Part shown: piece after piece, positions 17,104 to 57,065 of the stretch
Position numbering within the stretch: position 1 is the stretch's first letter
How the letters are laid out: each line of letters begins with the position of its first letter
NCBI GenBank assembly: GCA_030378105.1
Contig: JAUCGL010000010.1
Location: 1-57,566, forward strand
Source: Candidatus Halobeggiatoa sp. HSG11
GTDB taxonomy: Bacteria; Pseudomonadota; Gammaproteobacteria; Beggiatoales; Beggiatoaceae
Direction: 5' to 3'
Length of the DNA: 57,566 nt
The notes under the pieces: model-generated
Told to the model about the DNA's origin: nothing
Seen by the model: only the letters and a program-made list of their open reading frames with translations
The model's database searches: none
Translations under genes and position numbers: made by a program

Positions 17104-17135
17104 CAATATCAAATAATATGCCCGGTTAAAGACTA

Positions 17136-17225: not shown

Positions 17226-17296
17226 AATCAATACCTTACAAATAATAGTTATACATTCTTGAAAAATTATGATAATTTAACAAAAAAAGATTAAAA

Positions 17297-17980: not shown

Positions 17981-17983
17981 CAC

Positions 17984-18091: not shown

Positions 18092-18225
18092 TTTATAAAT
18101 AATATTACTATATACGATAGTGAGCTGCTATATCACAATTTAAAATTCAAAAATTTAATTTATATCAAAATAACCTTATTCCTATTAATATATAATGAAC
18201 AATTTGACATTTTAAGAGAAACATT

Positions 18226-18543
18226 ATGCGTAAATTAATAACTACCATTTCAGGTATTGTTCTTATTGGCCTTAGCTATACAGCAATGGCAGAAGGTGAT
18301 GGAGCTGCTTTATATGAAAGCAAAACCTGTTGGTCTTGTCATGGTAAAGATGCCAAAACTCCACTCATGCCTCAGTATCCAAAAATTGCTGGTCAAAATA
18401 AGGATTATGCCTTAATTCAAATGAAAGACATTAAAAGCGGAGTTCGTAGTAATGGTCAATCTGCTGCTATGAAAGGAGTTATGGGCTTAGTTAATGATGC
18501 TGAGATGGAAGCCATTGCTGAATGGTTATCTACTTTAAACTAA
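18226..18543 (+). CDS. Periplasmic monoheme cytochrome c
   Basis: Electron carrier of 105 residues with a Sec signal (about 1-22, ending AMA). Heme attaches at Cys35-Cys38 with His39 as axial ligand (CWSCHGK); the distal methionine is probably in the NGQSAAMKGVM stretch. Sequence style (GKDAKTPLMPQYPKIAGQ) is that of c-553/c5-like cytochromes. A TATAAT box lies at 18191-18196. The diheme cytochrome gene starts 17 bases after its stop, so they form one unit and probably feed the same oxidase or sulfur-oxidation branch. Confidence 0.93.
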   Translation: MRKLITTISGIVLIGLSYTAMAEGDGAALYESKTCWSCHGKDAKTPLMPQYPKIAGQNKDYALIQMKDIKSGVRSNGQSAAMKGVMGLVNDAEMEAIAEWLSTLN

Positions 18544-18559
18544 ATTAAGAGATTAATAA

Positions 18560-19294
18560 ATGAAATTAATGACATACTTACTTACTTTAGTTATAAGTAT
18601 AGCTTTAAGCAACACTGTATTAGCTGAAGAAAAAACCGAACCATCTAAGGAAGCTAAACGAGCTTGGAATCAGATGAATGAAGAGCAACAAACAGCTCTT
18701 GATGCTAAACCAGATATGGAAAATGGTTTAGATGTATACGAAGTTTGTTCTGCTTGTCATATGCCTGAAGGTTGGGGAATGGAAAATGGTACTTTTCCAC
18801 TGTTAGCTGGTCAACATCGTTCAGTACTCATTAAGCAATTGGCAGATATTCGAGCTTTGAATCGTGATAATCCAACTATGTATCCATTTGCACTTCCAGA
18901 ATCTATTGGAGATGCTCAAGCTTTAGCCGATGTTACTGCTTATATTGCTACTTTACCAATGAATCCTAAAAATGGAGTTGGTCCCGGTGACAATTTAGAA
19001 CATGGTAAAAAGTTGTATAAGGAAAACTGTGTTAAATGTCATGGTGAAGAGGGTGAAGGTAGCAAGGAAAAATTCTACCCACGTATCCAAGCCCAACATT
19101 ACAAATATATGTTGCGTCAATTTGAATGGATTCGTGATGGTAAACGCCGCAACGCTAATCCAGATATGGTTAAGCAGATTAAAAGTTTTACAGATAAAGA
19201 TATGATAGCGGTTATTGACTATGTTTCTCGTCTTAAACCACCTAAAGAAGATTTAGCTGAGCCAAATTGGCAGAACCCAGATTTTGCTGACTAG
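18560..19294 (+). CDS. Diheme cytochrome c4-type protein
   Basis: Periplasmic electron carrier with a Sec signal (1-22, ending VLA) and two heme sites, CSACH (residues 63-67) and CVKCH (157-161), each followed by a c4-style PxLAGQ or PRIQAQ segment. The 244-residue length is a little longer than usual c4 because of an acidic/lysine linker at 24-50 before the first heme domain. In sulfur bacteria such proteins carry electrons from quinol or sulfur oxidation to cytochrome oxidase (family knowledge). It forms a pair with the upstream monoheme cytochrome. Confidence 0.93.
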   Translation: MKLMTYLLTLVISIALSNTVLAEEKTEPSKEAKRAWNQMNEEQQTALDAKPDMENGLDVYEVCSACHMPEGWGMENGTFPLLAGQHRSVLIKQLADIRALNRDNPTMYPFALPESIGDAQALADVTAYIATLPMNPKNGVGPGDNLEHGKKLYKENCVKCHGEEGEGSKEKFYPRIQAQHYKYMLRQFEWIRDGKRRNANPDMVKQIKSFTDKDMIAVIDYVSRLKPPKEDLAEPNWQNPDFAD

Positions 19295-19403
19295 TTATAA
19301 TAGCAGTTAAACTTTATTAATTAAGTTAAGGTAATTTGTTGGAGTCCAAACTTTAGTTTGGGATTCTTTCAAGATAAATCTTGGACTCCTTCAAACCTTT
19401 TAT
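19295..19403. terminator. Hairpin between convergent genes, possible bidirectional terminator
   Basis: Between the cytochrome and rnr genes, GGAGTCCAA at 19341 faces TTGGACTCC at 19382, with the inner hairpin CCAAACT/AGTTTGG. The element can fold on either strand and separates two genes that run towards each other. Confidence 0.5.
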
Positions 19404-22918: not shown

Positions 22919-25900
22919 CTACTGATACAACCAAACTCGCAACAGAGAAAATAATTTATCTGCTTCAAGCGGTTTGGGTAAATAATCACTGGCTCCGGCT
23001 TCAATACATCTGGCTTTATCACTTTTCATTGCTTTGGCGGTCAAAGCTATAATCGGCAATTTGCGAAACTGTGGTTGAGAACGAATTTTTCGGATAGCCT
23101 CATATCCATCCATTTTTGGCATCATAATATCCATCAATACTACCGCAACTTTTGGATTTTGATTAAGCTGTTTAATAGCTTCTTCTCCATCATTAGCAAC
23201 GACAACTTCCATACCTTTGCCTTCAAGAATGGCTCCCAAAGCAAAAATATTACGCATATCATCATCAACTATCAATACTACTTTACCACTTAAAATTGCT
23301 TCTTTATCATGGACTTTATGCAAAATTTGTTGTTGCTCTTCAGATAACTTAGCTTCTACTTGATGGAGAAATAAAGTTGTCTCATCTAACAAACGTTCTA
23401 AAGAATGGACTGGTTTAACAATGAGGTTATTAGAATATTTTTGTAAAAGTGCTTCTTCTTCTTCATTCAGATCACGTTCAGTATAAGCGATCACCGGAAT
23501 ATGGTGATATTTTGATTCTTTATGAAGTTTTTCAAGTAGTTGAATACCAGTATTTTGTTCTACACCTATATCTATAACTATACAGTCATCTGCTTGAGTT
23601 TGCAGATGTTGCCATGCATCAGCACAAGTTGCAACTATGGTTGGTTCAATATTACTAGTTTTGATCAAATTAACAATGGCTTGTTGATGCTCAGGATTAT
23701 CCACAACTACCAGTAAATTTTTCACGATTTTGCTGATGAAATCTTCTATATTATTAAACACTTCAGTCAACCCTTCCGTACTAACTGGTTTAAGGCAATA
23801 ACCAATTGCTCCCATTTTTCGAGCATCTTGGCTGGCATCAGTACCAGAAACAAAATGAACTGGAATATGGCGAATATCAGGATTATCTTTGAGCCTTTCC
23901 ATCACCGTCCAACCATCTATTTGTGGCAAACCAACATCCAAAATAATTGCATTAGGTTGATATTTTTCTGCCAATTGTAAACCATTTTCACCATCTTCAG
24001 CTAACAAACATTTGAATTTTTTTGGTTTGGCCAGTTCAGAAATAATTTTAGCAAAATTGCGATCATCCTCAATAATTAAAATGGATTTATCAGTGGACTT
24101 TAAGTTATCTCTATCGTCAACCAAAGGAGTCTGTGAGTTGCTAACTGTTGGACTAGTTGCTACCGATGAAACAGTCGGTTTAGGTTGATTTGATGGCGTT
24201 TCAAGTTTGGTTGGTTTAGCATTTGTTGAATGTTTAATTGGAATATACAAGCTAAAAGTACAGCCTTGACCTTCGCCACCACTGTGTAACTGAATTTCAC
24301 CACCAATGAGCTGGATTAGTTGGCGTGAAATAGATAAACCAAGCCCAGTACCACCGTAACGGCGACTTGTAGTACCGTCAACCTGTTGGAAAGCTTCAAA
24401 AATAACTTTTTGCTTATCAGTTGGTATGCCAATACCAGTGTCGGTAACGATTATGGCAATTGTTTCTTGTGGATTGAGTTTGCTGCGTGATAAATCAGTT
24501 TCACCAGTTGGCCGCTGAATATTCAGGGTGATACCACCTTCATGGGTAAATTTGAAAGCGTTAGACAACAAGTTAGTAATAACCTGTTGCAGACGTTGTT
24601 CATCAGTGTAAATACTTGCTGGTAAATCCTCTGCTAAATTAAGCGTTAATTGTAGATTTTTTTCATCAGCAACATGACGGAATTTATGCTCAATTGAAGT
24701 GATTAAATCAGTTAGAACAAATTCTTCTTGGTTAATTTCAATTTTGCCTGCTTCAACTTTAGATAAATCCAGAATATCGTTAATTATCCTCAGTAATTCA
24801 TTGCCTGATGAGTGAATTGTATTGGCATATTCCACCTGTTTTTCACTTAGATTGTTATCTTTATTATTAGTTAGTAATTGAGCCAAAATTAGCATACTAT
24901 TCAATGGAGTACGCAATTCATGGGACATGTTAGCCAAAAATTCTGATTTATATTTACTGGCAACTTCCAATTCATCAGCTTTGATTTGAATGGCAGCTTT
25001 GTTTTTTTCTAATTCAGTATTTTTGATTTGAATATCTTGTTGCTGATGTTCCAATTTTTGTCCTCGATGTTCTAGTTCATCATTGCGTTGATGAAGTTCT
25101 TCTTGCTGGGCTTGTAATTCTTCCGATTGAGATTGTAACTCTTCAGTTTGACTTTGTAATTCTTCGTTAGTCTGCTGTAATTCTTCTTGATTATTTTGGA
25201 GTTCCTCAGCTTGATCTTGGCTTTGTTTAAGCAAACTTTGCATTTTAGTATGTGATTCAGCAGTATTAACTGTTATTCCAATATTGGGCAGTACTTGCTC
25301 CAAAAAACTCCGTTGCAAATCTGTCAGCTCGTCAGCAGAACCAATTTCAATAACACCTTTTACGCTATTTTCATATAAAAACGGAAGTAGTAATACATAT
25401 TTGGGTAGTGTTCCAGCTAAACCAGAGCGAATAATAGGTAAACATTCTTCCGGTCTTTGGCTGAAAGAGATAATCCTTTTATCCAAAACTGCTTGTCCAA
25501 CTAATCCTTCTCCAATAAAAAACTTTTGAGGTTGCTGATCATTGGTAGTGTAAGCATAGCTGGCAATTATTTGTAGATAAGGTTGTTGATTGTCTTTCAA
25601 ATCGTTTGTATGTAGCAAATAGAATAATCCAACTTCTGCTTCCACATAATCAGTTAGGAAAGATATAATATTTTTAGCAATAGTAACAATTTCTTGTTCA
25701 CCACTTATTTGTTCATTTAATTGGGCTTGACCTGTTTTAAGCCAGTCTTGGGCAACATTTTTGGAGGTAGTCTTAGCTAGTTTGCTGGCAGCAGATTCTA
25801 AGGCATCTTGAATTTGGGCAAAGTCACCTTGATATTCTGCTTTTGTAGTAACATAATTCCCTTCAGCTAATCCTTTAGACACTTGAGTTATGTCTTCAAT

Positions 25901-27013
25901 GACTTTTTGAAAATAGCTGGCTAAAGTATCAAAAGTTTGGCTTATTTCACCAATTTCATCTTTACGAGTAATTAGTTTAGTAATTGTAGTTCGGTTAATA
26001 CCAGTCAGAGTTATGTTACCTTCGCTAAGTAATTTAGAACTTTGTGCAATGAGAATCAGTGGCTTGCTGATTAAATTAGCTATAACAAACGCAATTAACA
26101 AACTAACTATCACTATCAATAAAGTAACAACAATATCAATTAAAACTGTTAATCTAGCAATTTCTTGAAGATTAATATGGGCAACTTTTTCTTGTTCAGT
26201 TGCACTTGTAAATATTTGTTCTAATGGTAGTTCAAGAGCATGTACTGCGGTACGAAAATTTTTTATACTAGTAGCAATTTGTTGGTCTGTTTTGACCAAT
26301 TGCATAAATTTGGTTTGGTATTGGTTAACTTGCCTAACTAATTGTTCTTTTTCAGTTTGATTCAAATCGGTATCTGCAACATTGGTTGTGAAACTAATGA
26401 CTGCTTTGTCCAAATTATCAACGTATTTTGTTTGATTGCGTAACAGATAATCCTTTTCATGTCGGCGCATAGTTAACTCATCAATTATCAGTTGATTCAA
26501 ATTACGCATTTTAATATTATCTTCAATTGCATGAACAGTTTCTCGAAATTGTCCTTCCAAACCACTATCTTGAAAACCACGTTTTTCCAGCAAATCAATA
26601 ACGGCTAGAAAAGTGGACTCGTATTCGGTGAGGTTTTTTCTGATAGCATCAATGACAATTAAGTCTTTTTCGTGAGTTTCTAATTCACTGATTTTACCCA
26701 TATATTTGTGGATATTAATCACATGAGCTTGCACTTTAGCTACGTATTTAGCCCGTGCCTTTGCAAAACCAAGTTGTTTATAACGCAAGAAATAGTCTTT
26801 CTCGTTACGACGTACCATTAACATTGCGTTTTGACTTTTCAAACTTAGTTTGGCAATTTGCCCATAAACATCAAGAAGTTCAACAGTTGTTGTCTGCATA
26901 TAATGTTGACTAAAGAAATTAATAATGCTATTAGTGACTATTAGACTAATAATAATTAGGAAAGCCAAAATTAGCTTGTTACGTATTTTTAGGTTATTAA
27001 ATCGGTTAAACAT
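22919..27013 (-). CDS. Hybrid histidine kinase with HBM-like sensor, GAF and three receivers
   Basis: Membrane sensor kinase of 1364 residues. A first transmembrane segment (about 13-33), a long helical extracytoplasmic region with repeated MRRxEKDYxLR (65-75 and 181-190; helical-bimodular type), a second membrane segment (about 288-318), HAMP, a GAF domain (about 455-590), a glutamine/glutamate-rich coiled coil (QEELQQTNEELQSQTEELQS, about 600-680), HisKA with [12 protein letters not shown] (His near 700), HATPase (about 790-920, GTGLGLSISRQL), then three receivers: 975-1090 (AIILDVGLPQIDGW), about 1097-1210 (weak, CIVIDIG) and 1240-1362 (VVLMDIMMPKMDGYE). No DNA-binding output domain, so it must signal to another protein. 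The 3' half is nearly identical to the next kinase. Confidence 0.93.
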   Translation of the reverse strand: MFNRFNNLKIRNKLILAFLIIISLIVTNSIINFFSQHYMQTTTVELLDVYGQIAKLSLKSQNAMLMVRRNEKDYFLRYKQLGFAKARAKYVAKVQAHVINIHKYMGKISELETHEKDLIVIDAIRKNLTEYESTFLAVIDLLEKRGFQDSGLEGQFRETVHAIEDNIKMRNLNQLIIDELTMRRHEKDYLLRNQTKYVDNLDKAVISFTTNVADTDLNQTEKEQLVRQVNQYQTKFMQLVKTDQQIATSIKNFRTAVHALELPLEQIFTSATEQEKVAHINLQEIARLTVLIDIVVTLLIVIVSLLIAFVIANLISKPLILIAQSSKLLSEGNITLTGINRTTITKLITRKDEIGEISQTFDTLASYFQKVIEDITQVSKGLAEGNYVTTKAEYQGDFAQIQDALESAASKLAKTTSKNVAQDWLKTGQAQLNEQISGEQEIVTIAKNIISFLTDYVEAEVGLFYLLHTNDLKDNQQPYLQIIASYAYTTNDQQPQKFFIGEGLVGQAVLDKRIISFSQRPEECLPIIRSGLAGTLPKYVLLLPFLYENSVKGVIEIGSADELTDLQRSFLEQVLPNIGITVNTAESHTKMQSLLKQSQDQAEELQNNQEELQQTNEELQSQTEELQSQSEELQAQQEELHQRNDELEHRGQKLEHQQQDIQIKNTELEKNKAAIQIKADELEVASKYKSEFLANMSHELRTPLNSMLILAQLLTNNKDNNLSEKQVEYANTIHSSGNELLRIINDILDLSKVEAGKIEINQEEFVLTDLITSIEHKFRHVADEKNLQLTLNLAEDLPASIYTDEQRLQQVITNLLSNAFKFTHEGGITLNIQRPTGETDLSRSKLNPQETIAIIVTDTGIGIPTDKQKVIFEAFQQVDGTTSRRYGGTGLGLSISRQLIQLIGGEIQLHSGGEGQGCTFSLYIPIKHSTNAKPTKLETPSNQPKPTVSSVATSPTVSNSQTPLVDDRDNLKSTDKSILIIEDDRNFAKIISELAKPKKFKCLLAEDGENGLQLAEKYQPNAIILDVGLPQIDGWTVMERLKDNPDIRHIPVHFVSGTDASQDARKMGAIGYCLKPVSTEGLTEVFNNIEDFISKIVKNLLVVVDNPEHQQAIVNLIKTSNIEPTIVATCADAWQHLQTQADDCIVIDIGVEQNTGIQLLEKLHKESKYHHIPVIAYTERDLNEEEEALLQKYSNNLIVKPVHSLERLLDETTLFLHQVEAKLSEEQQQILHKVHDKEAILSGKVVLIVDDDMRNIFALGAILEGKGMEVVVANDGEEAIKQLNQNPKVAVVLMDIMMPKMDGYEAIRKIRSQPQFRKLPIIALTAKAMKSDKARCIEAGASDYLPKPLEADKLFSLLRVWLYQ

Positions 27014-27069
27014 TTTAAGTGTGTCCTTTTTTATTATGAATGTATGAATATCTTAAATCTTTACTAAAT

Positions 27070-27332
27070 TAGGACTTAACGCATTGACAAAACAATCATT
27101 TCACGAATTTGTTAAAATACAAATAGTTACAAAAAATCACACCACTTGTATAATTTATATATAAACTATATTTATATAGCTCTGTCATTCCCGTGAAAAC
27201 GGGAATCCAGAAATCGTTGAGAACACTTGATTCCCACTTTCGTGGGAATGACAATTAATTAGTTTGCGTTTTATAAGTGTATGATTTTAATACATTTTAC
27301 ACTTTATTATATTTATCAATGCGTAAGTTCTA
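27070..27332. repeat. Element with AGGACTTAACGCATTGAC inverted ends
   Basis: TAGGACTTAACGCATTGACA at 27070 faces TCAATGCGTAAGTTCTA at 27316-27332 in inverted orientation. Between them lies a separate hairpin, TGTCATTCCCGTGAAAACGGG with TTCCCACTTTCGTGGGAATG (27185-27252), a REP-like unit common in proteobacteria. One end of the same element recurs at 38121-38140. The element occupies the gap between the two paralogous kinase genes. Confidence 0.65.
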
Positions 27333-27370
27333 TAAATTATAATAATTCATTGGTGTGATAAGGAAAAACT

Positions 27371-30300
27371 CTACTGATACAACCAAACTCGCAACAGAGA
27401 AAATAATTTATCTGCTTCAAGCGGTTTGGGTAAATAATCACTAGCTCCAATTTCGATACATTTGGCTTTGTCATCTTTCATTGCTTTGGCAGTCAAAGCT
27501 ATAATCGGTAATTTGCGAAACTGTGGTTGAGAACGAATTTTTCGGATGGCCTCATATCCATCCATTTTTGGCATCATAATATCCATAAGTACCACAGCAA
27601 CTTTCGGATTTTGACTAAGTTGTTTAATAGCTTCTTTGCCATCATTAGCAACAATAACTTCCATACCTTTTCCTTCAAGAATGGTTCCCAAAGCAAAAAT
27701 ATTACGCATATCATCATCAACTATCAATACTACTTTACCGTTTAAAATTGCTTCTTTATCACGGACTTTATGCAAAATTTGTCGTTGTTCTTCAGATAAT
27801 TTAGATTCTACTTGATGGAGAAATAAAGTTGTCTCATCTAACAGACGTTCTAAGGAACGGACTGGTTTAACAATGAGGTTATTAGCATATTTTTGTAAAA
27901 ATACTTCTTCTTTATCAGTCAAATCACGTTCAGCATAAGTGATTACCGGAATATGATGAAATCTTGATTCTTTATGAATTTTTTCAATTAGTTGAATTCC
28001 AGTATCTTGTTCTACACTAACGTCTATAACTATACAGTCATCTGCTTGAGTTTGCAGACGTTGCCAAGCCTCAGCACAAGTCGTAACTATGGTTGGTTTA
28101 ATATTACTTGTTTTAGTCAAATTAACAATGGCTTGTCGATGTTCAGGACTATCCACAACTACCAGCAAATTTTTCACGATGTTGCTGATGAAATCTTCTA
28201 TATTATTGAACATTTCAGTCAATCCTTCCGTACTAACTGGTTTAAGACAATAACCAATTGCTCCCATTTTTCGAGCATCTTGGCTGGCCTCAGTACCAGA
28301 AACAAAATGAACCGGAATATGGCGAATATCAGGATTATCCTTGAGCCTTTCCATTACCGTCCAACCATCTATTTGTGGCAAACCAACATCCAAAATAATT
28401 GCATTAGGTTGGTATTTTTCTGCCAACTGCAAACCATCTTCACCATTTTCAGCTAACAAACATTTGAAGTTTTTTGATTTAGCCAGTTCAGAAATAATCT
28501 TAGCAAAATTGCGATCATCTTCAATAATTAAAATGGATTTATCAGTTGGTTGCAAGTTATCTCTGTCATCAATTAAAGGCTCTTGCGAATGCAAATTACT
28601 AACTGTTGGACTAATTGTTGATGAAACTATTGTTGGTTTTGGTTGATCTGATGGTGTTTCAAGTTTGGTTGGTTTAGCATTTGTCGAATGTTTAATTGGA
28701 ATATACAAGCTGAAAGTACAGCCTTGACCTTCGCCACCACTGTGTAATTGGATTTCACCACCAATTAACTGGATAAGTTGGCGTGAAATGGACAAACCAA
28801 GCCCAGTACCACCGTAACGGCGACTTGTAGTACCGTCAACCTGTTGGAAAGCTTCAAAAATAACTTTTTGCTTATCAATCGGTATGCCAATACCAGTGTC
28901 AGTAACGATTATGGCAATTGTTTCTTGTGGATTGAGTTTGCTGCGTGATAAGTCAACTTCAGAAGTTGGTCGCTGAATATTCAGAGTGATACCGCCTTCA
29001 TGGGTAAATTTAAAAGCATTAGACAGCAAGTTAGTAATAACCTGTTGCAGGCGTTGTTCATCAGTGTAAAGATTTGCTGGTAAATCCTCTGCTAAATTAA
29101 GCGTTAATTGTAGATTTTTTTCATCAGCAACATGGCGAAACTTATGCTCAATTGAAGTGATTAAACCAGCTATGGCAAATTCTTCTTTATTAATTTCAAT
29201 TTTACCAGCTTCAACTTTGGATAAATCAAGAATATCATTAATTATTTTCAATAACTCATTGCCAGATGAATGAATTGTACTGGCATATTCTACCTGTTGT
29301 TGACTTAGATTGTTATCTTTATTATCAGTCAGTAATTGAGCCAAAATTAACATACTATTCAATGGGCTACGTAATTCATGGGACATGTTGGCCAAAAATT
29401 CCGATTTATATTTACTGGCAATTTCTAGTTCATCCGCCTTGATTTGAATAGCAACTTTGGTTTTTTCTAATTCAGTATTTTTGATTTGAATATCTTGTTG
29501 CTGACGTTTCAATTTTTGCCCCCGACTTTTTAGTTCATCATTACGTTGGTGAAGTGCTTCTTGCTGGGATTGTAATTTTTCAGTTTGACTTTGGAGTTCT
29601 TCGTTAGTTTGTTGTAGTTCTTCTTGATTATTTTGGAGTTCTCCAGCTTGAATTTGACTTTGTTTAAGCAAACTTTGCATTTTAGTTCGTGATTCAGCAG
29701 TATTGATTGCAATAGCTATCATTGGTAAAATTTGGCTGATAAATTCAAGTTGTATGTCCGTAAATGAATTAAAAGAAGCCAGTTCAATAACACCTTTCAA
29801 GCTATCTTCATAGAGAAATGGAGCAACTAAAATAGCTCGTGGAGCTGTTTCTCCCAAACCAGATTGAATAGGAATATAATCATCTGGAGCTTTATTAGTA
29901 ACAAATAGTTTGCGTTCCAAAGCAGCTTGCCCAACAATGCTTTCTCCAATTTTAAATTCATATGTGGAATTTTTACGCCAAATATAAGCATGGCTTGCCA
30001 GCATTTTTAAATAACTCTGTTCATCTTCTGTAGAATCTTTTAGCAGATAAAAAGCTCCAACTTGAGCATCTAAATAAGGAGTTAAAAAATTAATAATATT
30101 TTCAGTTAATTGAACTATATCCTGCTCCCCACTCATCTGCTTATTTAGCTGGGTTTGACCAGTTTTGAACCAATCTTGGGTTTCACGCTCACTAGTCATA
30201 TTTTGCAGATTTTTAACCATTGCTTGGATTGCCGCATAAATTCCAGTAGCTTTTTTGCTGTCAAAATGAATATCTAAATTCCCACTCGCTACTTTATTAG

Positions 30301-30988
30301 TTATGCCAGCAATTTCATATGGTTCTCCACCAACTTGAAGCATAATTTCCCGACTGATATAATAAACCGCAAAAATGGCTAAAATTATTCCCAATATATT
30401 AATAATGACAATAATCCACCAACTGGTATTGGCATGTGATTTCATACGTTTAGCATCTTCTAGCATTTTAGCACGGAACATTTCTTCAACTGCATCGGCA
30501 GTGGTGATAAACCTATTAAATATTTGATCAAATTTATCGTCTAGGTCTTGATCATCAAGCTCTTTTTTGCCAAAGTTATTATCAAAACGCAAATGAGCAT
30601 TCTTGATAAATGTATTTATATCTTGTTTAACTGAAATTATTTGTTTTTCTATAGTTGGATCGTTAACTGGATAAAAAGTACCTTTAGAATTTGTACCCCC
30701 TTTAAGAATGGCATCAGCATACCAAATACTTTTATCCAACAATTGCCAAACCCTTTTTATCACTTCCTTATCTTCAATTCCAATGATTATTTCTTCAAAC
30801 CAAAGATGGGCAATTGTAGCGGTCAATTGAATTTCCATTGCAGCATCAGCAAGAGGCGCGTTTTTAGTACCAAGTTGCACATTTTCTTTGTAAAGTTTTT
30901 CTATTCCTATGATGCTGAAACTTCCAGCAATAAGCATCACAGCTAAAATAGATAAAAATGCGATTAATAATTTAGTTTTGATTTTCAT
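27371..30988 (-). CDS. Hybrid histidine kinase with MCP-type sensor, GAF and three receivers
   Basis: Paralogue of the kinase at 22919-27013. The start is set at 30988 (MKIKTKLLIAFLSILAVM) because AAAGGA lies at a good distance before it; a longer frame to 31030 adds 14 residues without ribosome-site support. The 1205-residue protein has a four-helix-bundle MCP-like sensor between membrane segments (about 7-27 and 190-212), HAMP, GAF (about 295-430), a shorter coiled coil, HisKA (NMSHELRSPLNS), HATPase and three receivers in the same order as its neighbour. Sensor and GAF halves differ from the other kinase; from the coiled coil to the stop they are nearly the same. The sensing input has thus been exchanged while the relay was kept. 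Confidence 0.92.
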   Translation of the reverse strand: MKIKTKLLIAFLSILAVMLIAGSFSIIGIEKLYKENVQLGTKNAPLADAAMEIQLTATIAHLWFEEIIIGIEDKEVIKRVWQLLDKSIWYADAILKGGTNSKGTFYPVNDPTIEKQIISVKQDINTFIKNAHLRFDNNFGKKELDDQDLDDKFDQIFNRFITTADAVEEMFRAKMLEDAKRMKSHANTSWWIIVIINILGIILAIFAVYYISREIMLQVGGEPYEIAGITNKVASGNLDIHFDSKKATGIYAAIQAMVKNLQNMTSERETQDWFKTGQTQLNKQMSGEQDIVQLTENIINFLTPYLDAQVGAFYLLKDSTEDEQSYLKMLASHAYIWRKNSTYEFKIGESIVGQAALERKLFVTNKAPDDYIPIQSGLGETAPRAILVAPFLYEDSLKGVIELASFNSFTDIQLEFISQILPMIAIAINTAESRTKMQSLLKQSQIQAGELQNNQEELQQTNEELQSQTEKLQSQQEALHQRNDELKSRGQKLKRQQQDIQIKNTELEKTKVAIQIKADELEIASKYKSEFLANMSHELRSPLNSMLILAQLLTDNKDNNLSQQQVEYASTIHSSGNELLKIINDILDLSKVEAGKIEINKEEFAIAGLITSIEHKFRHVADEKNLQLTLNLAEDLPANLYTDEQRLQQVITNLLSNAFKFTHEGGITLNIQRPTSEVDLSRSKLNPQETIAIIVTDTGIGIPIDKQKVIFEAFQQVDGTTSRRYGGTGLGLSISRQLIQLIGGEIQLHSGGEGQGCTFSLYIPIKHSTNAKPTKLETPSDQPKPTIVSSTISPTVSNLHSQEPLIDDRDNLQPTDKSILIIEDDRNFAKIISELAKSKNFKCLLAENGEDGLQLAEKYQPNAIILDVGLPQIDGWTVMERLKDNPDIRHIPVHFVSGTEASQDARKMGAIGYCLKPVSTEGLTEMFNNIEDFISNIVKNLLVVVDSPEHRQAIVNLTKTSNIKPTIVTTCAEAWQRLQTQADDCIVIDVSVEQDTGIQLIEKIHKESRFHHIPVITYAERDLTDKEEVFLQKYANNLIVKPVRSLERLLDETTLFLHQVESKLSEEQRQILHKVRDKEAILNGKVVLIVDDDMRNIFALGTILEGKGMEVIVANDGKEAIKQLSQNPKVAVVLMDIMMPKMDGYEAIRKIRSQPQFRKLPIIALTAKAMKDDKAKCIEIGASDYLPKPLEADKLFSLLRVWLYQ

Positions 30989-31030
30989 AGGTAAAATTCC
31001 TTTGATTAAGAATGTGTATGTTATAAGCAA

Positions 31031-31331
31031 TTATTAGTTGTTAATTGTTAATTGTTAATTAAATTCAAAAACAATATCAATTATTTATAAAATATTAATA
31101 TAACTAACTCAATTGGGAAATGCTATAACAAAGTTGGATATGTTGAGGCAATGAAGCATCAATCAGATTTTAAACTGGTACATTCCCATTTTCACGGTAA
31201 ATTTATAATTATGATATCGTTCTTCAAGCTCTGCTTGAGAACGCACTGCCAAGAAGCTCTGCTTCACGAGTTAAATATGGATTTCTGGAAATACACTTCA
31301 TTTCATTCCCGAAACAACTGTCAAGGCTATT
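31031..31331. repeat. Non-coding gap with two repeat-family members
   Basis: 31095-31127 matches the right half of the TATAGCA-ended repeat (AATTGGGAAATGCTATA). 31214-31270 is a member of the CGTTCCCAA family (CGTTCTTCAAGCTCTGCTTG, then CTGCCAAGAAGCTCTGCTTC). Near 31300 the words ATTTCTGGAAATACACTTC and CATTCCCGAAACAACTGTCA look like a diverged right half of the 134-bp MITE. No gene. Confidence 0.6.
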
Positions 31332-33389
31332 TTATACATTTTCCTTATTTATTGTAGAGTTATCAGTTACATCAACTAAAACTCGATCTATTTCTGCCAG
31401 CAAGTGTTTTTGAGTGTAGGCACTTTTTTGAAAGATTTTCGCAACTTTATCATGCAAACATTGTTGATCTTCAACCGTTATATCCTTGGCAGTTAACACA
31501 ATGACTGGTATTGAGGCACAAGCCGGTTCTTGGCGTAATAAAGCAATAAATTCAAACCCATCCATTTCTGGCATCATTAAATCCAACAAAATTAATGCTG
31601 GTGGTTTCTGTTTAACTAATTCTAACGCTATACGACCATTTTCAGCTCGTTCAACTTGCCAACCATGTTTTTCCAAAGTTCCAGCTACCATTTCGCGTGT
31701 AACTATATCATCTTCTACTATCATAACTGGTGCAGAAACATCAATATTGGTATTGTATTTGCCAATAACTGCCTCTAATTTATTATAATCTAATGGTTTT
31801 ATCAAATATTCTGCTGTACCAACTGAGTAACCAATACTTCTATCTTCCAACAGTGACAATGTGATGATCGGAATATGGCTCAACTTTGGTTCACTTTTAA
31901 GGGTAGATAATAAATTCCAACCTTCACCTTGTTCCATCATGACATCCAAAATAATCGTTGTTGGTTCTAATTCATTTGCTAATCGAAGTCCTTCTTGATG
32001 AGTGGTAGCAAAAATTAACTTATAACCAACTTTATTTAGGTGTTTTTTAAGTAAATTATGTACCATCAAATCATCGTCAATCACAAGAATGGTTATATCT
32101 TTGGCGGTTTTGGTTGGAACCGGTATATTATTACTTTCAATGGGTTGGTTATTTGGAACTGAAATTATATTGCTTGTTTCTATCGGCAAATGCACTATAA
32201 AGTTACTGCCTTCATCAAGTGTACTCGTAACTGTTATATTACCTCCCATCATTTCTGCAAAATGTTTGCTTATCGCTAATCCAAGTCCGGTACCTCCATA
32301 TTTGCGTGTTGTGGAAGCATCGGCTTGAGTGAAAGCTGCAAAAAGACTGTCCTGTTGTTCTGCTGTCATGCCAATACCAGTATCGCTTACTTCAAATACC
32401 ATCCATGAAGCCTCATTTTCAGTAGTGATAGTCAGTTTAATTATGCCGTTTTCAGTAAATTTATTGGCATTGCTTAACAAGTTTAATAATATCTGGCGTA
32501 ATTTGGTTATATCAGCAAATAAAATGCCTAAATCATCAGCGTGATTTATTTCCAGCTTATTATTTTGTCGAGATAATAATGGTTGAACCGTGTTAACTGT
32601 TTCATTTAATACATCTATAACTGAAAAAGTTTCATTGTAAATATCCATTTTACCAGCTTCTATTTTAGCTATATCTAAAACATCATTAATCAATATTAAT
32701 AAATGATGGCCGGCTTCTTGAATTTTTTCGACATCAGCAATATATTCCACTTCCTCCGGAGTTCGTCCTTCTGCCACCGCATCATCGGTAGCTTCTTCAA
32801 TTAAAATTTCGCTATAGCCAATAATAGCATTTAAAGGAGTACGCAATTCATGGCTCATGTTGGCTAGGAACTGACTTTTGGCTAAATTAGCTTGTTCGGC
32901 GGTCTCTTTGGCTTGTTGTAAAGCAGCTTCAATTTGTTTGCGTTCATTTATTTCATCCTGTAACTGCTCATTTGTTTGGCGAAGTTCGGTATTATGAACA
33001 TATTCTTGTTCAATAAAACGTAAATAAGTTTTTACCCGATTGATTAATTGTAAAGAGTCTATGGGTTTAGTTAGATAGTCAGCCGCTCCAAGAGTAAAAC
33101 CTTGTTGCTGAAATTCTTCTGATTTGTAAGCAGCAGTTAGAAAAACTATGGGAATATGTTTAGTTCTTTGCCAAGATTGGAGCAATCCAGCAGTTTCAAA
33201 ACCATCCATCCCCGGCATTTGAACATCAAGAATTATAAGATTGATTGGTTCTTTCAAGGCAATTTTTAGAGCTTCTTCTCCAGAATCTGTTTCAATGATT
33301 GTGGCTTCAATATGCTCATTTAATAAAGTGCGAAGCGTAAATAAATTGTTTTTGTTATCATCAACAATCAAAATATGAAATATTGCCAT
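31332..33389 (-). CDS. Cytoplasmic hybrid histidine kinase, REC-HisKA-HATPase-REC-REC
   Basis: The 685-residue protein has no membrane segment. A receiver comes first (about 3-120, Asp55 in [13 protein letters not shown]), then a short coiled coil, HisKA ([20 protein letters not shown], His near 180), HATPase (about 290-400, [12 protein letters not shown]), a receiver with an altered site (about 435-545, [13 protein letters not shown]) and a last receiver (about 555-670, [16 protein letters not shown]). It could receive a phosphate from the neighbouring membrane kinases through its N-terminal receiver and pass it on (inference from order). It is the third kinase in a row on this strand, separated from the second by about 340 bases. 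Confidence 0.92.
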
Positions 33390-49262: not shown

Positions 49263-52200
49263 CTAAAAATCACATTCCAACTCACCTGGCATTATTTCAA
49301 TACACAAATCATCCGGAGCAGCTTCTAAAAATGGGTCAAAAGATAGTATTTCATAGACTTCAGTACTGCGAGTATTTGTTTCTGATTCAATAGCAATACT
49401 ATAAGTTACACTGCCTTTTTCATTAGGAATAATACTTGGTTCAACTTTTTCTGAGACTCGTTTATTTTTAACTGTAAAATTAGGAAGCACAAAATAAGGT
49501 TTGCCTTGATATAAAATTGCAAAAGTTCCATCGGCCTTATAAACAATCTGCTCAACTCCTTCAAATTTAAGAGCTTCTTCAATAAACACATCTGGAGATA
49601 AAACTGTTGGTCGAATTATTTGAGCAGTACCATCTGGATATTGAATTTTTCTGGTTTTAGCACGAGAAGAACGCTTACGCAAATCGCCATCACATTCTAA
49701 ATTACCGGGGGAAATCTCTATACACAAATCATCAGCAAAATCTTCTACAAATGGGTCAAATATTGCTATTTCATAAACTTCAGTGCTGCGAGTTCGGTTA
49801 GAGGATTTCATCATTACATCGCCACGTTTACCAACTGTTACTTCATTGCCAGTTACTTCTGATAATATTGCTGGGTCTTTGGGAGCTGGAATCACTTTAT
49901 ATTGCTGTCCTTCAGGAGTGGTTATGGTGTAAAAACCTCCGGCTCCAACTGATAAACCAATAGGCATTTCATCGGTATCCACTTGAATAACATTATCAGC
50001 ATCAGGAATAAAAGTGTATTGTTTTCCTTCTGAATCACCAGTTCCTTCCACATTTAAGATTCCATTTTCATCTTGGGATAACACAAAATCGGTTAAATCT
50101 TCTTCTGCTAAAGAATGAGTGGTAGCTTCCATTAATGGAGTACCAGCACCGCCTACACCAATACCACTGCCCATATCTGGTATAGCTGGCATATTCTTTG
50201 GGGTAGGGATATTTCTTGGGGTTATTTTAGCCCCAATCGGAGCTACAAATTCACCAGTTTTTAAATCCAAATCCCAACCATCAGGTATTAATTGAGCCAT
50301 ATCCTTTGGATCAATAGCTTCAAGGTCAACGTTAACAAATAGTTTGGAGACATCCTCACTTGGCATTTTTTGAAATTCTTCTTCATTAATGCTATCCACA
50401 TGGTCTGGAGTGAATTTATCTAATACTTCAACTGACAGGTCATCTATGGTATCTGAATCTAATCCACCTAAAGCTTCCACTGGCATTTCTTCAAACTGTT
50501 CAGGAGAGATAACTGCGATTGATTCTTCTTCAAATTGGCTCAATTGGTCTGCTTCGATAGCTGTAAATGCCTCGGCCGGAATTTCTTCAGTTTGTTCTTC
50601 GTCAAGGGTTCCGAATACTTCTGGTTCTAAATTAGCAATATCATCTGCCTGTAATTCTTGAATGTCATCACTAGCAAGCCCGAAATCTTCTGGACTAGGA
50701 TTGTCGTAATCTACCGGTATTGTTACTCCGGGGCCAAACTTAACATTTTCGGGAATAACTGTAGTTGGACTTAGGTTCACATAGGATAATTTGGCACCCG
50801 GTTCTATAGTAGCTGCTCCTATCTGTGCTGGAGAATATGGATCGCCAGTTATTTCTCCTGCCAAAGTTCCGCCTAAAACCTGCATTCCTTCAGATAATTC
50901 AACATCTTTAATAGTACCTGCACTCTTAACATTGCCAGTTAAAGTACCGCCAGTTAAAGTCGCTCCTTCTAGCAAGCTAATATCTGCCATTGTACCTTTA
51001 TTAACTACGTCACCAGTAAATTCACCGCCTTGCACTTCAGCATAGGGGCTTATAGTTATATCGCCCATAGTGCCGTTATTGATGGAAGAACCAGTTATCG
51101 TACCACCAGTTAAAATTGCCCCTTGCTCAATTGTTGCATTGGATACAAGACCATTGTTCACTATATTTCCGCCATAGCTACCACCAGCAACACTTGCATC
51201 AATCGTAACATCTTGCAAAGTCCCCTGATTCTTAACTATACCAGTTATATTTCCACCAGTAACAACAGCTTGTGCATCAATAGTTACATTAGATAAATCA
51301 CCACTATTAATTATTTCCCCAGCTACGTTGCCTCCTTCAACAACAGCACCTGCATCAATAGTTAAATCTTCTATCGTACCTTGATTGATGATATTACAAG
51401 CTAAATTGCCGCCTTCAACATTTGCCATAGTTTGAATGGTTGCGTTACACAAGGTTCCTTCATTAACAACTTCACCTTCCACTGCAACATTTTCGACTAT
51501 ATCGTTTGGACTTATGTCTGTGACGGTTGGGGTGGTTACGTCTAAGATAGCAAGAATTGCGGTGTCAATATTAAGTTGAATGTTGTCTGCATTGTTGAGA
51601 GTGAGTAACAGTGAATCCCCGGATGAGGCACTGTTGAGCATGGTTACGGTGAAAGTTTTTGGGCTATCGTCACCATTGGGCCAAGTTAAAGTGCCGTTGG
51701 TAGTTTGATAATCTTGGCCAGCAATAGCGGTTCCGTCAATGGTGCTGTAATCAACTGTTGCAATTCCTTGAGTTCCAATCCGATTAACGGTGATAGTAGC
51801 TGTTGTTTCGGTTTTGAAAGCACTATAACCTCTGGCACTGAAGCTGATAGTGGTATCATTAACAACAACAGTTTCATTATTGAACGTTATGTTAGTTGTA
51901 TCAATGCCTAATACGCTATTAGAATCAGATATTAGGTTGCTTAATTTAACTTTTAATATTTCTCCACTGGTGGCATCGGTAAGAATAGGAACGTTGATAG
52001 TTTTGTCACTTCTATCGTTTTCTGACCAGTTGAGAGTACCGCTTATTGATTGGTAATCTTGCCCGGCAGTGGCAGTGTCATTCATGGTGGTGTAGTCAAC
52101 TGTTACATTGCCTTTGATACCGCTGCGACTGATAATAATATCGGCGGTTGAGTTTTGGACAGATATAGATTCATTTTTGGAAGTGAAACCAATTATGTTG

Positions 52201-55200
52201 TCAAAATCAGTATCAAAAACCAGACCACCCGGATCAATAATCCGTCCATCAACTCCAGTGCTATCACCCAATTCACCATCAGTGAGATGATAATTAGCGG
52301 TGACAACTGGCTGTCCTCCAACTTCAACGATATCAAATTCCACATTTGGCATTAAATACCAACCTAATGTATTCATGTCACCAGGAGTTTTGTTGCCATA
52401 TTTTTGGAAATGTGGAGTAGCACGAAGCTCTTTTAAGCTATGATAATAGATAGTTATATCAGCTTCCGTTCCTTCCAATTCAAAGTAAACTAAACCTTGT
52501 GGAAAGATATATTTCTCGTCAAAATAACTTTGATTTTCGGCTAAATCAGTGTAAATTTCTTTAACCGTAACACTTTCACTGATGTCTAAAGTCAGATAGT
52601 TACCAGAACTTTGGTCTCGCATGGAAACAACATTGGGTTGGTCAGCATCGTGGATACCATCACCATTGCCATCGCCATTATTAGGAATATCAGGGTCTTT
52701 GATAAACAAGGCAGTACAGGATTTTTCACCTGTCATGTTCACGTTTCCTTCAGCATCACAATCTCCAGAGAAGCTGTCCAATACCCATTCAACTTCTGGT
52801 TCAGCAATCAGTTTAATAGTTGAATTGGCTGCTATTATTTCTTCACAGCTTTCTTTACATTCTTGAGTTTCAGTTTTAACTTTACCTTTGCCAGAAGCTA
52901 TAACAATAGTTAATGGATAACCTTCAACAAAAGTAGCGGTGCAGGTTTTATTGCTGTCCATCGTTATATTGCCTTCTTCATCGCAATCACCAGCCCAATT
53001 GTCTAAAGCCCATATTCCTTCTGAACTAGTGGTCAAGCTGATTGCTTCGCCACTTAAATGAGTTTGAGTACAACTAGTTCCGCAGCCGTCAACAGTTCCT
53101 TCTCCTTCAACATTGATAGTTAAAGTGTGTTCCTGCACAAAATTGGCGGTACAAGTTTTATCTTTATTAATTCTTACTTCGCCATCATCATCACAGTCTC
53201 CATTCCAACCAGTGAATATCCAACTTGTATCTGGAGTTTGGGTTAAGGTAAGTTCGGTTTGGTCGGCATAGTCATATTCGCAATCAGTTCCACAGTCTAT
53301 GCCGTAGGAAGTGGTTATAGTTCCGTTGCCTGTTTTTTCTACAGTTAAATTATGATATACGGTTACTGGACAAGCTGAGGTGGTTGCACTTGCTGTTATT
53401 GCTGTGGAGTCAATAGTTCCATCTGTGGCTATAACAGAATAACTGTAAGTTGTACCACAGGATAAACCACTATTACTATAACTAGTTGCATTAGCAGCAG
53501 TTGTTGTGATTAAGCTACCGGCTCGTTCTATTAAAAAACCAGTTTCACTTGTGCTGTTATCAGTCCAAGAGAGGTCAATTTGAGTTTCAGAAATAGTATT
53601 AGCTGACAAATTGGTTGGTGGACAAATAGCGGTTGTTGTATTGGTAGTAATTGGAGTTGAAGTTATTGACGCATTGGTAGCTGCTATAGAATAACTATAG
53701 TTTGTCTCACAAGTTACATTATTATCACTATAATCAATGACATTATTAGTAGTAGTTGTAATTAAGGGTCCATCTCGTTCCACTGTAAATCCAGTTTCAT
53801 CTAAGCTATTATCAGTCCACGATAAATTAACTTGGGTTGACAAACTATTAGCAGCTAAATTAGTAGGAGCCTTTAATTCATATTCATAGGCTCCAATATC
53901 GCAAGTGGTATGTTTGGGACGAGTTTCACCACGTTGGTCAGTTGCTTCGCAAGTAGCATTGTCACCAGCATTGATGGCAGGACTGCCGGGTAAAAGAGCC
54001 ATTGTTTGGGTAGTACCACCGTTGTCTTGCAAAGAACCAAGATTGGGATTAGCACTGAGATTTGTAGGACTACTACAACTACCGTCTTCAATGAGGTTGT
54101 TGGTATTAGTACCAATTGTTCCAGTATTTACACAATCTGTACTTGTATTGTTGGCAAATATACTATTCTTGAGGTGTAATGTACTTCCGCTAACATTATA
54201 GATACCACCACCCATTGTTGTGGCAGAGTTATTTGAAAAGGTACTATTACTTACTGTTGTGCTGCTACTCCCATCACTTAGGAGTCCACCACCATTATTG
54301 GCTGTATTATTGTAAACAGTGCAGTTATTGATGGTTACAGTGCCACCACTGGCATTACGAATTGCTCCAGCTTCGAATGTACTTGAGTTATCAAAAAATG
54401 AGCTTTTATTTACTACTAATGTACCACCAAAATTGGTAATAGCTGCCCCACTATTTGCAAAATTATTGGAAATAGTACAATTATTAACTGTTAGAGTAGA
54501 ACTATTTAATATACCTCCTCCATCATTACCAAGAACCTTGCCATTAGCAATTATTAGACTATCAAACACCACCGTTCCAGCAGTTACTTCAAACACCCGC
54601 ACTGCACCACCACCACTTATAGTTATATTTCGCCCAGTACCATCAATAGTTAAATTTTTGTCAATCGTGAGTTGATTACTGAGAGTGATAGTTTTTCCGA
54701 CAATGCTTGGGTCAAAAGTTATGGTATCGCCAGCATTGGCATAGTAAATAGCATCTCGTAAGCTGTTATTTGAAGTAGAAGTATCGTCATCTAAACTATC
54801 AACAATACTGCTCACAGTGGTATTTTGATAAGACGTATGAATAAATTCGTAAGCTCCAATATCACACTGATTCCAACCTGTGCCAGAAGTTGAACGAGTT
54901 TCACCACGTTGATCAGTGGATTCGCAAGTTGCGTTATCGCCGGCATTTATGGCTGGACTGCCGGGTAACAATGCCATTGTTTGGGTATCGCCACCATTGT
55001 CTGCTAATGCACTTAAAAGTGGATCGCCACTTAATGCTGGGCTGCAAGTACCATCTTCAATTAAATTATTGGTATTTGTGCTAATTGTACCTTCGTTATA
55101 ACAATTTTCTCCCAAAATAGCATTTGTTAAAATAGTATTTTGTAGATTGAGAGTTCCTTGATTTCTGATATCTGCCCCCCAGCCAAGTGCCTCTTTTTCG

Positions 55201-57065
55201 TTATCAGAAAAGGTGCTGTTTTTGATAGTCATTGTACTAAAATTGTACACGCCTCCTCCATTGTCGGCATAATTCCCAAAAAAGGTACTATTATTAATAA
55301 TTGCTGATGTACTAGAAAGGTCATTAAAAATAGCTCCCCCCTTGGGAATACCAGCAGTGACACGATTATTTATAAAGGTAGTTTGGTTGATTATCAGGTT
55401 ACTATTATTATAAATGCCTGCACCACCAGTTCCGGAACTATTCCCATTAGCAATAGTTAAATTATTAAATGTCACCGTCCCCGCTGTGACCTCAAATACT
55501 CGCACTGCATTATTACCACTTATAGTTATCTTTTGCCCAGTACCATCAATAGTTAAATCTTTGTCAATCGTGAGTTGATTACTGAGAGTGATAGTTTTTC
55601 CGACAATGCTTGGGTCAAAAGTTATGGTATCGCCAGCATTGGCATTGGCAATTGCTTCACGTAAAGTATTATTGCCCGCACCATTACTACAATCTTCAAC
55701 ATCCCCTAAGTTATCTACTACATTGTTATGTGACGTGCCACAAAATGTAAATACATCCCCATCCCCAAGATTGCTGGTAAAGGTAGCAATTCCATTAGCA
55801 TCAACGTCCACACTGTTCTGTGTTATTGTGCCAGTGGTTAAATCACCATCTCCATCGGTATCAATGAGAAGAACGGCTATAGACCAGGTCAAGCCCAAAC
55901 TACTCACATCTGAAGTCAAGACAACATCCCCAACATCACCGTTGACTTCAGCCACTTTCCATTCTCGCCCCAAACGCTTACTGATATTAGATGGTAATTC
56001 AGAAGTTTGTTCAATGGTGGAACCATCATCATTCCCCCAAATCAAAAAATTACCATCCGCAATACCACTACCAGTTATAGTAACAATGCTATCACTATTA
56101 ACACTACGAGATGCTGGTTGGTTTAAATCACCATCAGTACCAATACCAGCTATATCATTAATATAACCACTGTGAGAACCAGTTGAAGGATAAATAGTAG
56201 TACCACTTGAATTAACGTAATTAATTGTACTGTCTAGCGTTATACCATATTTAATGGCAAGGTAGGATTGAACTTTATTTCTATCCGCATCGGCCAAATC
56301 CGCATCATATATAATAACTTCGGCTATTTTGCCATCAAATAAACGGTCATTACCTAACAATGCTTTTGATTGCCTACCTATGGTTACAGGACCAGGACCA
56401 ATACTAGTACCATCATGGATGCTGCTTTCATTGATCTCATTACTGGTTATTTGACTTAAAGTAATAGCCCCGTTATATACAGAATTACCATTGAGATAAA
56501 TTCGTTGCTCATTGCTAAAATCTATTTTACCTGTGAAAATCACTGGATCAGTATTAAAATTATGGCTTATAAAAGCAGAACCTGCCCCACCATAACCTCC
56601 TGCTGAAGTCATGCCGAATGAATCATTAGCATAACGAAAACCCATTCCACAACAGCCTTCACCACCAAAACCAAATATATAATTATATTCGTTCGGTTCT
56701 ACGTCTGGCTTAACCGCCGCAAAAAAAGTCAATCCATCATTGGTGGAAAAAATATAATTACCTGCCAAATCAACACCATTTGCTGCCCCATCAAATTCAA
56801 CAGTTGGATTAAAATTGATGTTATCTGAAGCGTTGTTTTTAAAAGTAGGTGAAGTTTGTCCATCACTGCCACCATTAGTTGCAGGGTAGGCATTAAGGGA
56901 TTGGTCAGTCCAATTAGTCAGCGTTTGACCATCGGTTTGGCTAATACCAGCATCAGCTTTGAGCCACAATTGCAAATTGCTAGAAACACCGCCGGGAGCT
57001 GCTTGTAACGTTATTGTTATTGAAACTAATAATATGGTCAGTAATTGTTTCATTTGTATCTCCAT
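49263..57065 (-). CDS. Giant secreted mosaic protein with repeats (2600 residues)
   Basis: Exported by a Sec signal (about 1-22, LTILLVSITITLQAAP). In order, with rough residues: LamG/concanavalin-like domain (25-280), DUF8202-like region (about 285-440), two CSLREA-type/right-handed beta-helix modules (about 455-738 and 755-1058; both begin ITFDPSIVGKTITLSNQLTI), two fibronectin-III domains (1062-1245, NLSWTDNS), three InlB-type bacterial repeats (1245-1460, GxGxV...GDCD...C.A.F), a choice-of-anchor U-like domain (1475-1625), two Calx-beta domains (1625-1835), about ten GG-containing short beta repeats (1855-2090), an acidic short-repeat tract (2120-2260) and a C-terminal part with a motif present twice (2423-2460 and 2563-2600). 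No LPXTG, PEP-CTERM or membrane tail. Its surface role is probably adhesion or matrix; the secretion route beyond Sec is unknown. Confidence 0.9.
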   Translation of the reverse strand: MEIQMKQLLTILLVSITITLQAAPGGVSSNLQLWLKADAGISQTDGQTLTNWTDQSLNAYPATNGGSDGQTSPTFKNNASDNINFNPTVEFDGAANGVDLAGNYIFSTNDGLTFFAAVKPDVEPNEYNYIFGFGGEGCCGMGFRYANDSFGMTSAGGYGGAGSAFISHNFNTDPVIFTGKIDFSNEQRIYLNGNSVYNGAITLSQITSNEINESSIHDGTSIGPGPVTIGRQSKALLGNDRLFDGKIAEVIIYDADLADADRNKVQSYLAIKYGITLDSTINYVNSSGTTIYPSTGSHSGYINDIAGIGTDGDLNQPASRSVNSDSIVTITGSGIADGNFLIWGNDDGSTIEQTSELPSNISKRLGREWKVAEVNGDVGDVVLTSDVSSLGLTWSIAVLLIDTDGDGDLTTGTITQNSVDVDANGIATFTSNLGDGDVFTFCGTSHNNVVDNLGDVEDCSNGAGNNTLREAIANANAGDTITFDPSIVGKTITLSNQLTIDKDLTIDGTGQKITISGNNAVRVFEVTAGTVTFNNLTIANGNSSGTGGAGIYNNSNLIINQTTFINNRVTAGIPKGGAIFNDLSSTSAIINNSTFFGNYADNGGGVYNFSTMTIKNSTFSDNEKEALGWGADIRNQGTLNLQNTILTNAILGENCYNEGTISTNTNNLIEDGTCSPALSGDPLLSALADNGGDTQTMALLPGSPAINAGDNATCESTDQRGETRSTSGTGWNQCDIGAYEFIHTSYQNTTVSSIVDSLDDDTSTSNNSLRDAIYYANAGDTITFDPSIVGKTITLSNQLTIDKNLTIDGTGRNITISGGGAVRVFEVTAGTVVFDSLIIANGKVLGNDGGGILNSSTLTVNNCTISNNFANSGAAITNFGGTLVVNKSSFFDNSSTFEAGAIRNASGGTVTINNCTVYNNTANNGGGLLSDGSSSTTVSNSTFSNNSATTMGGGIYNVSGSTLHLKNSIFANNTSTDCVNTGTIGTNTNNLIEDGSCSSPTNLSANPNLGSLQDNGGTTQTMALLPGSPAINAGDNATCEATDQRGETRPKHTTCDIGAYEYELKAPTNLAANSLSTQVNLSWTDNSLDETGFTVERDGPLITTTTNNVIDYSDNNVTCETNYSYSIAATNASITSTPITTNTTTAICPPTNLSANTISETQIDLSWTDNSTSETGFLIERAGSLITTTAANATSYSNSGLSCGTTYSYSVIATDGTIDSTAITASATTSACPVTVYHNLTVEKTGNGTITTSYGIDCGTDCEYDYADQTELTLTQTPDTSWIFTGWNGDCDDDGEVRINKDKTCTANFVQEHTLTINVEGEGTVDGCGTSCTQTHLSGEAISLTTSSEGIWALDNWAGDCDEEGNITMDSNKTCTATFVEGYPLTIVIASGKGKVKTETQECKESCEEIIAANSTIKLIAEPEVEWVLDSFSGDCDAEGNVNMTGEKSCTALFIKDPDIPNNGDGNGDGIHDADQPNVVSMRDQSSGNYLTLDISESVTVKEIYTDLAENQSYFDEKYIFPQGLVYFELEGTEADITIYYHSLKELRATPHFQKYGNKTPGDMNTLGWYLMPNVEFDIVEVGGQPVVTANYHLTDGELGDSTGVDGRIIDPGGLVFDTDFDNIIGFTSKNESISVQNSTADIIISRSGIKGNVTVDYTTMNDTATAGQDYQSISGTLNWSENDRSDKTINVPILTDATSGEILKVKLSNLISDSNSVLGIDTTNITFNNETVVVNDTTISFSARGYSAFKTETTATITVNRIGTQGIATVDYSTIDGTAIAGQDYQTTNGTLTWPNGDDSPKTFTVTMLNSASSGDSLLLTLNNADNIQLNIDTAILAILDVTTPTVTDISPNDIVENVAVEGEVVNEGTLCNATIQTMANVEGGNLACNIINQGTIEDLTIDAGAVVEGGNVAGEIINSGDLSNVTIDAQAVVTGGNITGIVKNQGTLQDVTIDASVAGGSYGGNIVNNGLVSNATIEQGAILTGGTITGSSINNGTMGDITISPYAEVQGGEFTGDVVNKGTMADISLLEGATLTGGTLTGNVKSAGTIKDVELSEGMQVLGGTLAGEITGDPYSPAQIGAATIEPGAKLSYVNLSPTTVIPENVKFGPGVTIPVDYDNPSPEDFGLASDDIQELQADDIANLEPEVFGTLDEEQTEEIPAEAFTAIEADQLSQFEEESIAVISPEQFEEMPVEALGGLDSDTIDDLSVEVLDKFTPDHVDSINEEEFQKMPSEDVSKLFVNVDLEAIDPKDMAQLIPDGWDLDLKTGEFVAPIGAKITPRNIPTPKNMPAIPDMGSGIGVGGAGTPLMEATTHSLAEEDLTDFVLSQDENGILNVEGTGDSEGKQYTFIPDADNVIQVDTDEMPIGLSVGAGGFYTITTPEGQQYKVIPAPKDPAILSEVTGNEVTVGKRGDVMMKSSNRTRSTEVYEIAIFDPFVEDFADDLCIEISPGNLECDGDLRKRSSRAKTRKIQYPDGTAQIIRPTVLSPDVFIEEALKFEGVEQIVYKADGTFAILYQGKPYFVLPNFTVKNKRVSEKVEPSIIPNEKGSVTYSIAIESETNTRSTEVYEILSFDPFLEAAPDDLCIEIMPGELECDF

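Follow-up and report, generated by a model that had tools for sequence, protein, structure and literature searches.

A family-restricted C-terminal module on giant, putatively surface-attached proteins of Beggiatoaceae

Members of the Beggiatoaceae appear to attach a common C-terminal module of about 300 residues to many Sec-exported, modular, adhesin-like proteins. We regard it as an even call whether this module is a lineage-specific domain for attachment to the surface or for assembly, carried by Sec-exported giant adhesins. C-terminal surface attachment fits best because the same C-terminus is shared by varied cargo, the proteins bear signals for Sec export, and the module is restricted to one family and conserved; we rank an export signal next, and then matrix assembly. 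The module flags giant surface-protein candidates in most Beggiatoaceae genomes and, should it prove to be an anchor or export signal, would mark a route to the outer surface not yet described in Gammaproteobacteria.

Giant sulfur bacteria live in sheaths and mats. The literature searched, which included few subscription papers, offered no account of surface-protein display in these organisms and no title or abstract opening that describes the module or its motif; the parts seen of PMC4679880, PMC4853749 and PMC5728499 contain nothing on either.

The giant protein and its duplicated motif

The window, that is, the whole stretch of 57,566 nucleotides analysed here, encodes near one end a protein of 2600 residues, whose parts are given below.

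49263..57065 (-): giant motif-bearing protein, 2600 aa (open reading frame and translation)
56997..57053 (-): predicted Sec-type signal peptide, residues 5-23, MKQLLTILLVSITITLQAA (sequence and heuristic)
53877..54050 (-): choice-of-anchor Q domain, best of two stretches (E 2.7e-53)
53415..53621 (-): fibronectin type III domain (Pfam scan)
53133..53351 (-): InlB B-repeat (Flg_new_2), best of two stretches (Pfam scan)
51969..52208 (-): Calx-beta domain, best of two stretches (Pfam scan)
50772..51383 (-): beta-solenoid stem, residues 1895-2098 of the folded stretch (structure model); its repeats start somewhat upstream of residue 1895, where the folded stretch starts
50295..50693 (-): superhelix of short helices in repeats of about 8 residues, residues 2125-2257 (structure model)
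49266..50213 (-): conserved core of the C-terminal module, residues 2285-2600 (sequence alignments and profile matches)
49686..49799 (-): motif copy 1, residues 2423-2460 (pattern and alignment)
49266..49379 (-): motif copy 2, residues 2563-2600, the C-terminal end (pattern and alignment)

A sequence-only reading of this DNA had noticed that the last 38 residues copy the block at 2423-2460 with both cysteines conserved. This is borne out by 27 identical residues in 38 ungapped columns and by a C-x9-C in each copy (Cys 2448/2458 and Cys 2588/2598). The two halves align locally over 82 columns with a score of 155, so the repeated unit exceeds 38 residues; 1000 shuffles of the halves gave a mean of 27.6 (s.d. 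5.0) and a maximum of 53, none reaching the observed score. FDPxxE and acidic residues are conserved within the motif, and an Arg-rich stretch lies upstream of it in many relatives. Where two copies are present they stand about 140-211 residues apart, and the paired CxnC loops are similarly spaced in many module proteins. The last copy in the giant protein ends in CDF at the very C-terminus. Relatives carry extra residues after the last CD, 20 in one of them (L089). The final F is therefore not a conserved feature, and a terminal Phe signal of the outer-membrane-protein type was rejected for this reason.

The motif recurs outside the giant protein, so the outcome that would have refuted the earlier reading, an occurrence in this protein alone, was not obtained: a motif model of 44 positions (A5) yields 132 matches, some spanning only the part before the cysteines, in 20 of the 42 family genomes, while a phylum sample gives one matching genome in 398, the organism's own. 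That reading had also seen in the C-terminal ending a likeness to sorting or anchoring signals, to be checked by asking whether the motif is always C-terminal and follows a Sec signal. Of the 77 module ORFs whose stop lies in the locus, a loose pattern places it at the C-terminus in 46, many of which have a Sec-like N-terminus. One of the two copies in the giant protein is internal. The idea of a short tag has to be given up. By eye, 131 of the 132 motif matches lie inside a module match or directly beside one in the same frame, the sole exception being a 33-residue frame in genome G008, so the motif is not seen as a stand-alone tag and a free-standing sorting tag was rejected. Because the module occurs in 31 of 42 genomes and the motif in 20 of 42 (both models at E <= 0.001), the module is the better candidate for a targeting signal, if one exists; a sorting or anchoring role for either is putative. 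The expectation that the signature belongs to no known family stands, since neither Pfam nor NCBIfam gives the motif a name.

Disulfides cannot be essential to the module, since the motif model finds nothing in 11 of the 31 genomes that bear it. Modules without a terminal CxnC occur, for example, in genomes G009, G024 and G025, and some frames of the first two retain the first copy. With the motif in only 20 of 42 genomes and some members lacking both cysteines, the CxnC loops seem to have been added later to an older core that lacked Cys.

Extent, distribution and conservation of the module

The C-terminal module to which the motif belongs is about 300 residues long and, in the giant protein, comes after a beta-solenoid and short-helix repeats. 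Searching the organism's own genome with the last 234 residues gave 22 matches, of which one, a 54-residue frame with a stop on contig C73, was dropped as a fragment; the remaining 21 frames derive from 19 fetched stretches and the window. All 21 have their match at the C-terminus or close to it (several frames end at contig ends), and in L025 and L027 the BLAST match ends 85-88 residues before it. Similarity to the giant protein extends back to residue 1958 or earlier in 10 of the 19 relatives listed. The last 330 residues of the 21 frames were aligned, and all three module alignments (A1 with 21 rows, A2 and A3 with 16 each) contain a core in which certain Gly, Pro and Asp positions are invariant or almost so.

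How strictly is the module C-terminal? The position counts rest on fetched loci, including 39 stretches picked by choice among about 150 listed matches; over all these loci the A1 model matches 79 frames. Leaving out a weak fragment (L057, 26 bits) and a frame that runs off its locus (L056), 77 remain. The best match ends at most 10 residues from the stop in 51 of these, at most 25 in 69 and at most 50 in 73. In eight frames it lies more than 25 residues before the stop, which counts against C-terminal anchoring; of the four beyond 50 residues, two (L096 and L054) have a further partial match after the best one, ending 1 and 12 residues from the stop, and the others continue for 101 (L098) and 211 residues (L099). 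Some of the genes are broken: at L057:7650-8399 the module is divided between two frames of a gene interrupted by stops, and an interrupted gene at L013:795-1244 and 1317-6500 has its signal-peptide start in a separate short frame upstream of the long one.

At E <= 0.001 the A1 model matches 31 of 42 Beggiatoaceae genomes, with up to 23 matches per genome; the own genome reaches this number. The order-level genomes in the set searched are the same 42 as those of the family. Wider samples, with at most five candidates scored per genome, gave four matching genomes among 369 of the class, all within Beggiatoaceae, and one among 398 of the phylum, again the own genome; no module was found outside the family in either sample. 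Records with the module are labelled Thioploca, Thiomargarita, Parabeggiatoa or Thiotrichaceae/Thiotrichales (18 loci). We take the family to be Beggiatoaceae; the 25 genera tallied among its genomes equal the number given in PMC11172852. An origin as a plasmid or phage gene was considered and rejected, the C-terminal 316 residues having no tblastn match in 72,556 plasmid and 50,697 phage records.

The module has expanded within the genome and is under purifying selection. A tree of 74 rows groups nine own-genome copies in a single clade (support 100/99). The median dN/dS is 0.21 over 78 pairs from 13 close relatives. For the last 36 codons it is 0.13, over the 66 pairs with usable dS. On contig C161 (positions 1-20000, L009) three module genes stand in tandem on one strand, and the last 837 bases of one of them are 94% identical to those of a gene on another contig (L010).

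Upstream parts, stalk and candidate functions

The cargo in front of the module is diverse. Scanned with Pfam and NCBIfam, 12 own-genome proteins differ in their domains, among them choice-of-anchor Q and U, FG-GAP, LRR, DUF285/PARCEL, cadherin, He_PIG, fn3, InlB repeats and Calx-beta. Choice-of-anchor Q or U lies upstream of the module in seven of the 12; elsewhere, these domains precede a variety of anchors. None of the best domain stretches in the 12 falls within the last 330 residues, and a domain scan of the last 656 residues of the giant protein returned a single chance match (E 6.3). Pairwise BLASTP of the N-terminal parts (at least 100 residues, leaving out the first 60 residues, stem and helices) of 14 own-genome proteins found no similarity in 45 of 91 pairs and some in 46, spanning half or more of the query part in 19, while the module is common to all 91.

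Along with adhesin-type repeats (fn3, cadherin, Calx-beta, LRR, FG-GAP and PARCEL), starts resembling Sec signal peptides are present, the combination expected of a surface-anchored adhesin in general. A loose signal-peptide heuristic is passed by 45 of 62 module frames with an upstream stop, the giant protein included, as compared to 80 of 221 neighbouring ORFs and 39 of the 90 among these with at least 300 residues. On inspection by eye, the 17 failures include several truncated, masked or broken frames and several others whose starts resemble signal peptides.

Might the module instead be the outward tip, binding a ligand while attachment takes place elsewhere in the protein? Its terminal position and a conserved motif with FDPxxE and acidic residues would suit such a role. 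We think it improbable: a tip should vary most, whereas here it is the N-terminal parts that vary, and inspection of N-terminal sequences by eye (uncounted) revealed no lipobox that could serve as an anchor at the other end.

A model of residues 1895-2330 (mean pLDDT 89) comprises a beta-solenoid followed by the short-helix repeats. The solved folds nearest to the solenoid are TibA (Z 14.6; 4.4 A over 220 residues) and Ag43 (Z 12.3-13.3), followed by a beta-helical antifreeze protein (11.6), a gut-metagenome beta-helix (10.8) and the HMW1 secretion domain (10.6). With repeat folds, Z values below about 13 can reflect no more than a common arrangement. VIA-align was effective only on the first 228 residues of the stalk model, and a family missing from its matches is not thereby excluded. 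Foldseek gave no match to this model at E <= 0.001; its similarity of the short helices to mesothelin is weak (best E 0.044, probability 0.98). For the C-terminal core of 316 residues the AlphaFold model is not usable (pLDDT 48), which counts against the anchoring reading, and a profile search of the core against PDB sequences gave no match at E <= 10.

The resemblance to TibA and Ag43 bears on a further explanation, in which the module would serve the mucous sheath or matrix as a domain for self-assembly or cross-linking, by way of intermolecular CxnC disulfides and solenoids associating side by side. These two proteins are self-associating, many members have paired CxnC loops at similar spacing, and one genome can hold many paralogs. 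Fold similarity shows no function, though; C-x9-C suits a loop within one chain at least equally well, and the Cys motif is missing from many members, so that we judge such assembly quite unlikely.

Under surface attachment, our preferred reading, we infer location, partner and disulfides of the module proteins as follows. The protein would be exported by Sec and then pass the outer membrane, and the C-terminal module would hold it to the cell surface or within the mucous sheath. Solenoid and helices may serve as a stalk, with the variable N-terminal domains facing outward. The two CxnC loops, where present, could form hairpins closed by disulfide bonds, which would stabilise or link the module.

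Known sorting systems and gene neighbourhood

A close parallel in organisation is the type IX C-terminal domain (Por_Secre_tail, TIGR04183 and kin) of Bacteroidota, in which a Sec signal is combined with a conserved C-terminal domain on unrelated cargo. Module proteins likewise pair a Sec signal peptide with a lineage-wide C-terminal domain on unrelated cargo. Unlike its type IX counterpart, the module occurs in Gammaproteobacteria, is larger and internally duplicated, and comes with CxnC loops and a helical and solenoid stalk. Pfam and NCBIfam scans detected no TIGR04183-like sorting domain in the giant protein (E <= 0.1) or in 11 further members (E <= 0.001), and SprA_N, of the type IX system, has no match in the own genome, nor in the control genomes.

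PEP-CTERM/exosortase, GlyGly-CTERM/rhombosortase and LPXTG tags carry a hydrophobic helix. The module resembles them as a C-terminal element on many candidate surface proteins, often behind choice-of-anchor domains, but is a domain of about 300 residues without such a helix. Within the last 350 residues, 77 of 78 frames with a stop have no 19-residue stretch above 1.63 on the Kyte-Doolittle scale, and the 78th (L057), which is the weak-scoring piece of a broken gene, peaks at 1.85. Hydrophobic C-terminal tags were rejected on this basis. As a separate observation, four short frames of the own genome (168-195 residues, on contigs C301, C275, C41 and C240) match the second half of exosortase/EpsH above cut-off.

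The autotransporters Ag43 and TibA and the exoprotein HMW1 of two-partner secretion (TPS) contain a beta-solenoid comparable to the stem in front of the module. The giant protein matches none of their Pfam models; the likeness is one of stem fold only. Among the 12 own-genome module proteins, Pfam found neither the TPS domain (PF05860) nor any autotransporter model. The short-helix repeats have their counterpart, weakly and through the fold search alone, in mesothelin-type superhelical repeats. By these comparisons the module would act in the manner of a C-terminal sorting or anchoring domain but appears to belong to none of the known ones tested.

Among the matches listed, five loci from four genomes and two genera (L105, L106, L108, L109 and L110) have a TPS-domain gene directly downstream of the module gene on the same strand, at gaps of 18-711 bases; they encode filamentous haemagglutinin-like exoproteins, and one of the five frames is broken. 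Within 1 kb, 0.26 TPS neighbours would be expected (12 genomes, 132 module and 201 TPS matches; Poisson P about 8e-6), where four of the five loci come from one genus and need not be independent. Of the TPS places listed in the own genome, just one has a module gene within 5 kb, on contig C14; the two are divergent, with another gene between. The link to two-partner-secretion genes is suggestive only.

Could the module then be a secretion signal, read by an outer-membrane export machine like the C-terminal domain of type IX cargo, and maybe cut at the Arg-rich stretch before FDPxxE? A Sec-like N-terminus and a common C-terminus across different cargo would agree with it, as would the Arg-rich linker of many relatives, the near absence of exosortase- or rhombosortase-type hydrophobic stretches and the five TPS genes downstream. 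No export machine was found, however: the type II secretin (GspD) passes its cut-off in 40 of 42 family genomes, module-bearing and module-free alike, and does not discriminate between them. We consider such a signal unlikely. Bolder is the proposal of a sorting or anchoring system specific to Beggiatoaceae, in which the duplicated CxnC module of about 300 residues would have a dedicated outer-membrane partner, be possibly TPS-linked and be unrelated to known tags; to us this is doubtful.

Two further observations concern the wider surroundings. The 5.2-Mb own genome has 39 TPS-domain matches, several of them clustered, for example on contigs C299, C263 and C110. In the window itself, positions 22919-33389 hold three consecutive genes that by eye resemble hybrid histidine kinases/response regulators, the first two of them very similar over their C-terminal halves.
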